A stretch of 64,000 nt of DNA, taken from positions 29,140,001 through 29,204,000 of the forward strand of contig OZ038526.1 in the NCBI GenBank assembly GCA_964036665.1, in the 5' to 3' direction. The first letter of the stretch is position 1; every line of letters starts with the position of its first letter. The notes under the pieces are model-generated. The model saw only the letters and a list, made by a program, of their open reading frames with translations. It was not told the DNA's origin and made no database searches. Made by a program: the position numbers and the translations under genes. Shown here piece by piece: positions 49,528-52,150 of this stretch. The stretch comes from Gordius sp. MW1 (Eukaryota > Nematomorpha > Gordioida > Gordea > Gordiidae).

Positions 49528-49670
49528 TGTTATATATTTAAATATTGTATTTTAATATTTATTCCAAACGAGACGGTAGATTCGTCTCGTACTATATATT
49601 CATCCTTTGTTCTATTTCCTAATAGTTCTTTGTTATTTAACGCTTTAATGAATACTTAATAAACTCATCA
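49528..49670 (+). repeat. 5' LTR, 143 bp
   Basis: Shares with the 3' copy TTATTCCAAACGAGACG, ACTATATATTCA, CCTTTGTTCTATTTCCT and TAGTTCTTTGTTAT. The copies differ at many sites, so the insertion is not recent. The sequence is unusually short for a Gypsy LTR. Confidence 0.78.
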
Positions 49671-49726
49671 TTGGCGCTGCGAGTCTGCGACGTAATTAAG
49701 ACTTTAGGATATATATATTCTAAACT

Positions 49727-50449
49727 GGAAAGATATCACTAAAGGAATTTGATTCTATTAATGAAGATATTGAGGATTATTTAGATTACGTGGACGCGCG
49801 TCTTGATATTATAGGAATATTATCCGATGTGGCAAGGAAAAAGTTAATTAGAGCATTTTTAGACACGGTGAATTTAAGAGTGTCTCAATTTCTATATCCA
49901 AAGCTTTTTAAGGACGCCATATGGGATGAAAGCGTTTGTGCTCTGCATAAAGTTTTTAAAAAGACAACCTCGGCGTTTGCGCCGAGAATGGAACTTATGC
50001 GCTCAAAAAGAGGCTCCGGTGAGTCGGTATTGGAATTTTATCGTAAAATCACTTCTATAGTACAAGCTTGTAACTTTAAGGTGGATATAGAAGCGCGTAT
50101 TCGTGATCAGCTGATTTTTGGAGTTAATCTAAAACGTTTAGGTCTCGAAATTCATACAAATTTTCCTAATTGTGAAGAAAAGGATGGTAGTGCTCTCAAA
50201 TTGGAAAAGGTGCTGGAAATGGCACTAACAATCGAAAGAGCCGAGGAAGAGACTAAAGAAAATGTTCCTATGCTTTAAAAGATATCAAGGACGCAAGACG
50301 ACAGGTCTTTCAAAACCGACAAGATTTTTAAATGCCAACGTTGCGACAAGAATCATCACTCAAATCAGTGCCCCGCCTTCATGGCATATTGCAGAAAATG
50401 TAATAAGAGGGGACATTGCGCCCGATGCTGTAAGGACGATTCCAAAGTT
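49727..50449 (+). pseudogene. Gag-like protein with two CCHC-type zinc knuckles
   Basis: An acidic start (EFDSINEDIEDYLDYVDARL) leads into a capsid-like region typical of Gypsy gag (LIRAFLDTVNLRVSQFLYPK, SGESVLEFYRKITSIVQACN). After an in-frame stop at 50,276 come two knuckles: CQRCDKNHHSNQC and CRKCNKRGHCARCC (about 50,328-50,431). Frame ends at 50,449. By family knowledge gag packages the element RNA. No clear ATG at the start. Confidence 0.75.
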
Positions 50450-50490
50450 TAGCAAGTGTATATACCCGGGAGGATAATGATACGGTTTCT

Positions 50491-50900
50491 ATGAATTCAA
50501 TATATCAAATTAATCGTCGATGGTGCCGTGCTACGATCAAGATAAAAATCAACGAACTCTGGACATTAATGGATTTTGATACTGGCGCTCAGGTGTCGGT
50601 CATTAATGCATCATTATGGGAAAAAATTGATACACCATTACTTAGAAAGACCATACCACCATTAGTATATGGTCTTACCATTCTAGATATATTGGGGGAA
50701 TCAACCGGGAAGGTCAAGTTGGCAATAGAAAGAAAGTTTTAAAGGTTCTGTATAGCATCGGTAAGGATGTACCACTTTTTGGCTTACCGTGGAGCTTAGC
50801 TTTTAACTTATCACTTCCCCCAATGGTTAAAGTGCATAATTTATGTAGTTTAAACAATCAAACCTCGATTACTAAAATTTTTGAGAAGGCATTTAGCACA
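50491..50900 (+). pseudogene. Retroelement aspartic protease and start of pol
   Basis: LWTLMDFDTGAQVSVINASL contains the retropepsin D-T-G-A active site followed by the hydrophobic strand. After a 1-base slip near 50,742 the frame continues LFGLPWSLAFNLSLPPMVKV, the pre-RT region of Gypsy pol, and ends near [14 protein letters not shown]. The RT itself does not follow. Confidence 0.75.
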
Positions 50901-50984
50901 ATATTTGACGCAAATTGGAATTAATAAATTCATGTCAACCAAGAGTTATTCATGTAAAACAGATGCAACTCCTAGATCTAGGTT

Positions 50985-51700
50985 GTACCAATTCTTGGCT
51001 ACGAGACGAGTTGGCTAAGACCCAGCAAAAGCTGATTGCTAGTGAACAGAACGTGGCTGCGTTAAAAGAAAAGGGCAAACACTTGGAATACATGGCGAAC
51101 ATTAAGAAAGACGATGAAGACAATTCTAATAGCACCATAAGCACCGGGTCGGCAAGCGATAGCTGGGGTGACCATTGGGCATCCAGCCTAATGCTCTTAG
51201 ATCTCGGGTTCGAAGATAGCGAGGCACACCCAGGCGGTGCTAATAACGCAGTCCCTAATAAATCTCCCACTAGTCAAAGGGGTCTCGGTAATAGTGTATA
51301 CGGCCAATCGTGAAGCAGCAATGGGTCGGGTTTCATCTTGAATTCTGGTTACGAAATACTCCCCACGCTCGAAAATCTAGACGTTTTGAATGGGGAATGG
51401 GGTAAGTACAAGGACGCCGAGCCATTTTTAAAGCTGGCCATGAAAATTAGGGAAAATTTAAAAGGTTTTGATCACCCAGACGTTGCCAAGCGACTTAACA
51501 ACCGCCCTCTTGTGTCAAAATCAGGGCAAGTACAAGGACGCCGAGCCATTTTTAAAGCAAATAATAACGAGGGCTCACGAGAAAGAGCAGAGGGTAGAAA
51601 ATTGCAAGGGTGTTGATGGCCTTCCCGATACCGCCTCTAGCTATGAGGATGGGGCTTGGCATAAATCTACAGCCAATGTCGATAGTTTGGCGCATGACAG
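50985..51700 (+). pseudogene. Kinesin light chain coding sequence captured by the LTR element
   Basis: The heptad-repeat segment [20 protein letters not shown], then [20 protein letters not shown], is the conserved end of the kinesin light chain coiled coil. NSGYEILPTLENL matches the start of the TPR region; GKYKDAEPFLKLAMKIREN and FDHPDVAKRLNN are TPR helices; after a frameshift come ALLCQNQGKYKDAEP, ITRAHEKE and ENCKG, and finally YEDGAWHKSTANVDS, equal to the conserved GEYGGW(Y/H)KA-KVDS end. Order matches the host protein but TPRs are lost: a 33-bp direct repeat (GTACAAGGACGCCGAGCCAT, at about 51,406 and 51,528) suggests deletion between TPR units. No introns are visible, so it probably came from spliced mRNA. 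Known role of the host protein: cargo binding for kinesin-1. Confidence 0.9.
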
Positions 51701-52017
51701 GGAATTAAAGGCACAAATTTTTCTTCCTGAGCAACCGGTGTGGGTGAGGAATAAATAGAGTCAGGGTTTGCATGAGGGCTTAATTGCTACAAACGGCTCC
51801 TCAGTGGAAGCGGATGGTAGGGTATTGCGGAAGCATGTCGACCAACTAAGGAATAGATTGTTAGATACACAAGAGTTAATGCAAGTGTACAACCGTTAGT
51901 TACGCCTAGAGGAGAGTCGTTTAACATAAGTCCAACGTCTCATCCGAAACGACGTTTGCCCACCTTCAAGAATTATCAAAGAATTATAATTAAACCCAAA
52001 AAGAAAAGGAGGACATA
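51701..52017 (+). pseudogene. C-terminal remnant of Gypsy-type pol after the integrase core
   Basis: RELKAQIFLPEQPVWVRN, then after a stop EADGRVLRKHVDQLRNRL (about 51,810-51,860). V-W-V-R-N and G-R-V-L-R-(R/K)-H-V-D-Q-L-R are the post-integrase motif of Gypsy pol. It shows that the kinesin segment lies within pol and not after it. Confidence 0.78.
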
Positions 52018-52150
52018 TGTTTTATATTTGAACATTATATTTATATTTATTCCAAACGAGACGATCGATTTGTTTTGTACTATATATTCACCCTTTGTTC
52101 TATTTCCTGATAGTTCTTTGTTATCTCGCGCTTTTACTTAATAAACTCCA
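52018..52150 (+). repeat. 3' LTR, 133 bp
   Basis: Starts TGTTTTATATTTGAAC after the purine tract and ends AATAAACTCCA. It lies only about 100-180 bases upstream of the first recognisable cystinosin exon. Confidence 0.78.

Follow-up and report, generated by a model that had tools for sequence, protein, structure and literature searches.

How did coding sequence of a microtubule motor adaptor come to stand where a retrotransposon should hold its own enzymes? The question is raised by a locus of Gordius sp. MW1 within the 64,000-nucleotide window analysed here (C8:29140001-29204000, where C8 is contig OZ038526.1). At positions 49528-52150 of this window lies a decayed Ty3/Gypsy-type long terminal repeat (LTR) retrotransposon, on the + strand, in which a segment of kinesin light chain (KLC) is enclosed by pol on both sides. 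Comparison across the genome (211.8 Mb in 12 contigs, eight of them large, C1-C8, of 21-37 Mb) makes it very probable, in our judgement, that this copy belongs to a non-autonomous Ty3/Gypsy family that arose through a single KLC capture and was then mobilised in trans and amplified as an in-frame cassette of Gag, protease (PR), KLC and pol tail. The original prediction, made from the letters of the window, had named a short LTR pair, gag knuckles, a DTGA protease, a post-integrase motif and a purine tract on one strand, and all of these pieces are present.

The window copy runs from the part of pol that precedes the reverse transcriptase (RT), through KLC, into the pol tail; its own RT and integrase are gone, making it a non-autonomous derivative. 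The captured segment occupies 50980-51685 (706 bases) and, aligned to the host gene, consists of spliced host exons E1-E8 from which tetratricopeptide repeat (TPR) units have been lost. A length of about 0.7 kb had been proposed and stands, with its limits refined to an end exactly at host E8 and with internal TPR losses, most of them common to other copies. Piece by piece the segment is 76-90% identical in DNA to host KLC exons, and it matches PDB chain 9pmb_C (KLC1) at E 2.6e-11 and Pfam TPR_NPHP3 at E 1.6e-6, though the latter is below the cut-off; this is well beyond a chance match. The host gene (L041, C2:1481500-1490999, minus strand) has nine visible exons (E1-E9) separated by GT..AG introns. 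Among public proteins the first match to its product by E-value is a 762-aa fish protein (64%, E 2.9e-232) and the second by E-value is from Gordionus, a horsehair worm (72% identity, E 1.1e-202). Crab and other arthropod KLC proteins likewise reach 72%, and linker words are common to the host and Gordionus proteins and absent from the one crab protein compared.

The 5' pol/KLC junction (50979/50980) enters KLC at coding sequence (CDS) position 73, in the middle of exon E1, and the 3' KLC/pol junction (51685/51686) leaves it at the exact end of E8, so that element copies cover KLC from CDS 73 to CDS 1229. That 3' end is CDS 1229 in 17 of the 20 copies read there, local duplicates counted, and falls within 2 bases of it in the other three. 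Of thirteen matches found to exon E1, one is the host gene, matched in full, and the 12 others, all non-host, begin at CDS 73 or later; the set lacks several known copies, among them that of the window. The window copy fuses E1 to E2 (51148/51149, with a 1.3 kb intron gone) and E4 to E5 (51457/51458), and other copies supply the remaining joins; between them all seven introns of E1-E8 are missing, which bears out the absence of introns expected from the window. In the 20 copies whose 3' end was read, KLC stops inside the CDS beside pol, and no poly(A) tail, 3' untranslated region (UTR) or flanking duplication was seen around KLC alone. With spliced KLC enclosed by element sequence within a single LTR pair, the window copy qualifies as host-gene transduction by an LTR element.

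Relatives of the element show what was replaced. In three KLC-free relatives (L042, L043 and L044) pol continues at the 5' junction point, and in RT-bearing relatives the position of KLC is taken up by RT, RNase H and integrase, as had been proposed for the window from its flanking pol. The open frames of L043 match, in order, RVT_1 (9e-18), RT_RNaseH (2e-33) and Integrase_H2C2 (2e-16), and weakly rve_3 (4e-4, below the cut-off). No Pfam match to a protease was obtained in L043, and its protease stretch was placed by alignment to the window; as read from these predicted domains, the order protease-RT-RNase H-integrase of Ty3/Gypsy is present in this autonomous relative. The gag-PR-RT open frame of an autonomous relative has its best match in Gordionus (34%, E 8.1e-96), which together with the KLC protein matches points to a nematomorph host. 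Pol homology resumes at 51692, at about 70-75% identity to RT-bearing relatives, and for the 5-6 bases directly behind KLC, which read CTTGGC in most copies, no clear source is seen. At the 5' join, read by eye, at most 1-2 bases are shared.

The same arrangement recurs across the genome. A search with the 3' junction gave 24 candidates, all of them scored: in 23 the match crosses the junction, and in the remaining one, the host gene, it stops there. Because four of the 23 copies belong to a tandem duplication at C1:10.10-10.19 Mb and three to a local cluster at C8:4.50-4.55 Mb, they represent 18 independent loci, on C1, C2, C3, C4, C6, C7 and C8 (seven of the eight large contigs); both counts are lower bounds. 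Identity to the window over the junction stretch is 77-84% in the other copies. LTR pairs were found at three KLC copies, with Kimura two-parameter (K2P) divergences of 0.027, 0.056 and 0.118, the last in the window copy, and at two relatives (0.033 and 0.114). As the divergences differ among KLC copies, the insertions were spread over time, and their ages are given as K2P rather than in years. With the same junction at 18 loci and LTR pairs at three copies, the KLC copies move as a unit.

At each of the two fusions KLC and pol share one frame. The original 5' join interrupts no codon, either of pol (in L043) or of KLC (at CDS 73). In one copy of the B group (C2_17.16, C3_5.58, C1_0.97, C8_18.57 and four C7 loci), L025, a single 276-aa open frame passes from gag-PR into KLC across the 5' fusion, and in another, L053, a 280-aa frame runs from four pol codons through KLC into the pol tail across the 3' fusion. 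Small insertions and deletions (indels) tell a similar story: all six found at two or more loci have lengths divisible by three, against 9 of 36 confined to a single locus (Fisher p 0.001, 14 loci), in a test designed after the indel list had been seen. One of the six (1173-1178, 13 loci) may instead reflect bases gained by the host, and without it the count is 5 of 5 (p 0.003). The count covers indels outside the central TPR block and omits C8_22.18, C1_10.19, the C8_4.5 cluster, C1_27.81 and one large insertion. Losses within the central block were left out of the frame evidence because in-phase losses from repeat to repeat keep the frame anyway.

Constraint on the codons themselves is uneven. 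Comparing copies alone at the A and B loci, KLC changes with both states in at least two loci divide into 31 synonymous and 55 other, and singletons into 62 and 214 (p 0.016, omega-like 0.51); third positions account for 38 of the 86 informative sites and 85 of the 276 singletons. This test replaced an earlier one referenced to the host (65 of 190 shared changes synonymous, 62 of 310 singletons), into which host-branch changes could leak, and it is the weaker of the two. The host-referenced singletons, set against a random expectation of 22-25% synonymous, fit no constraint, as in dead copies. For gag-PR the corresponding numbers are 165 synonymous to 132 other for shared changes and 121 to 407 for singletons (p 8e-21, omega-like 0.24), or 163 to 117 and 114 to 392 without C1_10.19 (omega-like 0.21). 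By these codon counts gag-PR was under clear constraint, part of which may come from autonomous partners, and the amino acids of KLC under weak constraint at most.

The cassette itself has diversified. A loss of CDS 457-722 is common to most copies, as is another within the TPR region; C8_22.18 and the C8_4.5 cluster do not show the 457-722 loss and have different ones. In the central TPR block, two of four A copies have a net loss of 387 bases and the other two of 389 and 391, and C6_5.04 has lost 477. Of eight B copies, five are 513 bases short there and the remaining three 514, 514 and 519. The B copies also lack about 110 bases around the 5' join. The KLC part of C8_22.18 does not begin until CDS 613, and here too pol and KLC lie in a single open frame. 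With the host as root, the KLC tree places C8_22.18 and the C8_4.5 cluster at the earliest branching, the window with C1_10.19 next and the B group last, several supports being low.

The 5' halves of these elements have a different history. In a gag-PR tree of 16 KLC loci and eight relatives the KLC loci do not form one clade, and the best tree constrained to make them one is 173 log units worse (approximately unbiased (AU) test, p 0.00026). Two labels are doubtful, C1_10.19, where gag-PR lies opposite to the KLC part, and C8_7.88, not seen running past the junction; without them (15 against 7 rows) the difference is 154 log units (AU p 1.2e-05). The tree used for the AU test left out C8_4.52 and C8_4.34, which are short, C1_27.81, whose gag region was not included, and C1_11.06 (L031), which had been present in earlier trees. 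Since the gag-PR parts of KLC copies are not one clade, repeated recombination with autonomous partners is indicated. With a single capture suggested by the KLC joins and deletions, this tree conflict is most simply read as repeated transfer of 5' halves into KLC elements from autonomous elements packaged with them, the mechanism of exchange being our suggestion.

Several observations weigh against the origin proposed here. A target duplication was seen in one copy among those in which both LTR ends were compared, C3_23.45, and there it agrees at 4 of 5 bases (gctat/actat); at the window copy no 5-bp target-site duplication is visible by eye (atagt/ctctt). All copies read are decayed and have local open frames only. 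No relative was found with the exact post-junction bases CTTGGC, and a genome search for them returned 15 places, all of them KLC loci already known from the junction search. Over all loci, finally, codon constraint on KLC is weak, with 35 synonymous to 75 other shared changes and 83 to 250 singletons (p 0.17, omega-like 0.71).

Other accounts of the origin must be set beside this one. A chimeric contig or assembly join in the window, raised in advance as a way in which the prediction might fail, does not fit a KLC-to-pol junction that recurs at 18 independent loci in copies 77-84% identical to the window over that stretch, and we reject it as next to impossible. A processed KLC pseudogene made by a long interspersed nuclear element (LINE) inside an ordinary element, and later copied with it, would account for the intronless KLC in a genome where a repeat with LINE-like RT debris is abundant. 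It should have left a tail or duplication bounding KLC alone, as had also been foreseen, and none was seen; the start in mid-exon, the stop at an internal exon end, the lack of a 3' UTR, the missing pol between the junctions (from RT to the integrase core) and the in-frame condition of both joins largely refute this account, which we regard as very unlikely. Hardly more probable is that different Gypsy lineages captured KLC independently. The scatter of gag-PR parts over several places of the tree speaks for it, but the copies break at E8 on the 3' side and, wherever the original join survives, at CDS 73 on the 5' side, and the 457-to-722 loss and other indels are shared. One capture with exchange of 5' halves explains this more simply, and we reject independent captures too. 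A closer rival concerns the 3' junction only: an element may have lain in KLC intron 8, and splicing of the KLC transcript may have joined the E8 donor to a cryptic acceptor in pol, leaving the 5' junction alone to template switching. KLC does end exactly at the E8 donor, and an evenly placed break would come within 1 base of an exon end in about 2% of cases, although this is one observation judged post hoc. Against it, seven relatives read by eye have no acceptor with a clear pyrimidine tract at the matching place, no clear source is seen for the 5-6 post-junction bases, and today's host KLC region yields no element match better than E 0.04. We consider splicing at this junction a serious possibility, if somewhat the less probable one.

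What the KLC part did for the element admits three answers: it may have had a role as protein, have served as an open frame shielding the RNA, or have been an unneeded passenger. If KLC was kept merely as an open frame, allowing ribosomes to read through and protecting the RNA from nonsense-mediated decay, its amino acids would hardly matter. The frame kept in shared indels, the weak codon constraint (omega-like 0.51 at A and B loci, 0.71 at all loci) and the loss of TPR units in several ways are consistent with this, and the excess of third positions at A and B informative sites points the other way, to some amino-acid constraint; we hold this account tentatively, as plausible but short of the better bet. 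A more specific idea is that a Gag-protease-KLC fusion tied particles or RNA to the microtubule motor through the coiled coil or the C-terminal part of KLC, with the advantage selecting both frame and spread. This seems to us doubtful. If true, the element would stand beside the acute transforming retroviruses as their endogenous equivalent, with a motor adaptor as the captured gene.

We therefore return to a single capture followed by mobilisation in trans, for which we propose the following course. A virus-like particle would have held element RNA together with spliced host KLC RNA, and reverse transcription would have passed from pol into the middle of KLC exon E1 and returned to pol where E8 ends. 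As the alignments show, KLC took the place of RT, RNase H and the integrase core, and the LTRs, primer-binding site (PBS), gag-PR, pol tail and polypurine tract stayed. Lacking RT and integrase, the family would have spread with the enzymes of full-length relatives, an inference well supported by RT-less copies at 18 loci and drawn also from the exchange of gag-PR. It kept swapping its 5' half with these relatives, presumably by recombination during reverse transcription. For as long as copies were mobile, a single gag-PR-KLC-tail frame was kept, as is seen in the shared small indels, and TPR units were probably lost through in-frame deletions between similar repeats. Once inserted, copies decayed with no visible constraint.

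The remaining anatomy of the window copy is as follows. The 5' LTR (TGTTATAT...ATCA) occupies 49528-49670 and the 3' LTR 52018-52150; both come from self-comparison with edges set by eye, the right edge of the former by the PBS-like word that follows. They are direct repeats that start with TG and end with CA, and are 84% identical over the aligned part, from which the K2P of 0.118 asked for alongside the prediction was obtained. The PBS-like word TGGCGCTGCGAG (49672-49683) adjoins the 5' LTR, and TTGGCGCTGCGA likewise stands directly behind the LTR in L012, L013 and L043; it is a candidate PBS. The 5' part of the element (49528-50960) matches more than 30 loci of the genome. The first part of gag (49724-50278) is an open frame of 184 aa, then broken, with a PNMA-like Pfam match at E 0.11, below the cut-off; the gag end (50279-50452) carries two CCHC-like knuckles recognised by eye, CQRCDKNHHSNQC and CRKCNKRGHCARC. 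The aspartic protease, with FDTGAQVS (50434-50742), matches Pfam Asp_protease_2 (E 0.0019, the best) and gag-asp_proteas (E 0.0053), all matches being below the curated cut-offs. Pol between protease and RT follows at 50743-50979, of which 50801-50977 is 87% identical to L042. Behind KLC, the pol tail that in RT-bearing relatives follows the integrase core (VWVRN...GRVLRKHVDQLR) spans 51692-51900, its homology to these relatives beginning at 51692 at the earliest, and a polypurine tract (51998-52017) directly precedes the 3' LTR. The copy is dead, with gag broken and its KLC part split over three different open frames; no env frame was noticed in it. Just upstream of the element, a 236-aa open frame lies on the minus strand at 48551-49261.

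Individual copies elsewhere deserve mention. At C1:10097615-10196454 (L019-L022 and L036-L039) four near-identical KLC-element copies stand 29-35 kb apart in a tandem segmental duplication, with a gag-PR part beside each KLC part in opposite orientation. The cluster at C8:4504689-4551446 (L015-L017 and L049-L051) consists of broken copies whose KLC is without the common 457-722 loss; one of them, L017, begins at KLC CDS 73, and the sequence upstream of it is not pol. In L013 (C3:23.45 Mb), which has the least LTR divergence of the three copies measured, a later insertion, about 562 bases inside the KLC part, splits the cassette's exon E8 sequence. Three pol ends of the autonomous relative lie about 5.4 kb apart at C5:14954954-14966515, apparently as a tandem array. 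The copy L031 (C1:11062274-11066687) was considered as a KLC-free parent and rejected: its gag-PR sequence breaks within a few bases of the point of the KLC 5' junction and is followed by an abundant repeat with LINE-like RT debris. This break may be due to an insertion that fell there at random, or may mark a second piece of foreign sequence at that point in pol.

How does this family compare with known systems? Acute transforming retroviruses arise by capture of host oncogenes, with viral genes lost and a helper needed. The likeness is close, in that a spliced host gene replaces viral genes, is fused in frame to Gag and depends on helper enzymes in trans; the Gordius family differs in being germline, old and multi-copy, in having captured a motor adaptor and in having no env seen in the window copy, and it is not known to affect host growth. 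Among elements of plants, Bs1 of maize lacks RT, moves in trans and has a low copy number. The passages of PMC13317346 that treat Bs1 and other plant LTR elements describe capture of host genes, and for Bs1 list pieces of a plasma membrane H+-ATPase, a xylan endohydrolase and a glucanase. Bs1 is thus alike as an LTR element with host gene pieces, but belongs to a plant and holds three host genes, whereas the Gordius family is found in an animal, at 18 loci or more, with one host gene. Unlike Bs1, it also has shared in-frame deletions and a gag-PR that was kept and exchanged with autonomous relatives. Terminal-repeat retrotransposons in miniature (TRIMs) lack coding sequence, and unlike them the Gordius family has gag-PR, formerly constrained. 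Small non-autonomous LTR elements, TRIMs included, sometimes carry captured pieces, according to the relevant passages of PMC13317346 and PMC3532108.

A protein search with the L053 frame gave 132 matches; the 120 listed cover at most 68% of the frame, and there is no retroelement name among them, most being unnamed. A search of open-licence papers on kinesin light chain and host-gene capture by retroelements found, by title, no KLC capture. The nearest animal case is LTR-mediated retroposition in metazoans (Tan et al. 2016, as summarised in part of PMC5408686), in which template switching joins host mRNA to an LTR element, with cases from mosquito, Drosophila, zebrafish and chicken. As far as PMC5408686 describes them, these animal captures are retrocopies, in contrast to Gordius, where one capture would have founded an amplified, frame-constrained family. 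In this one event it is possible to trace an intron-bearing host gene through its joins to a family of mixed age at no fewer than 18 loci, with shared in-frame deletions and relatives that keep RT. Sequence alone can here address how captures form, whether elements use captured coding sequence and how often autonomous and non-autonomous elements recombine. Capture of host genes by LTR elements is already known; what we rate as new is an animal family, amplified, in frame and apparently recombining, built on one captured motor adaptor gene.

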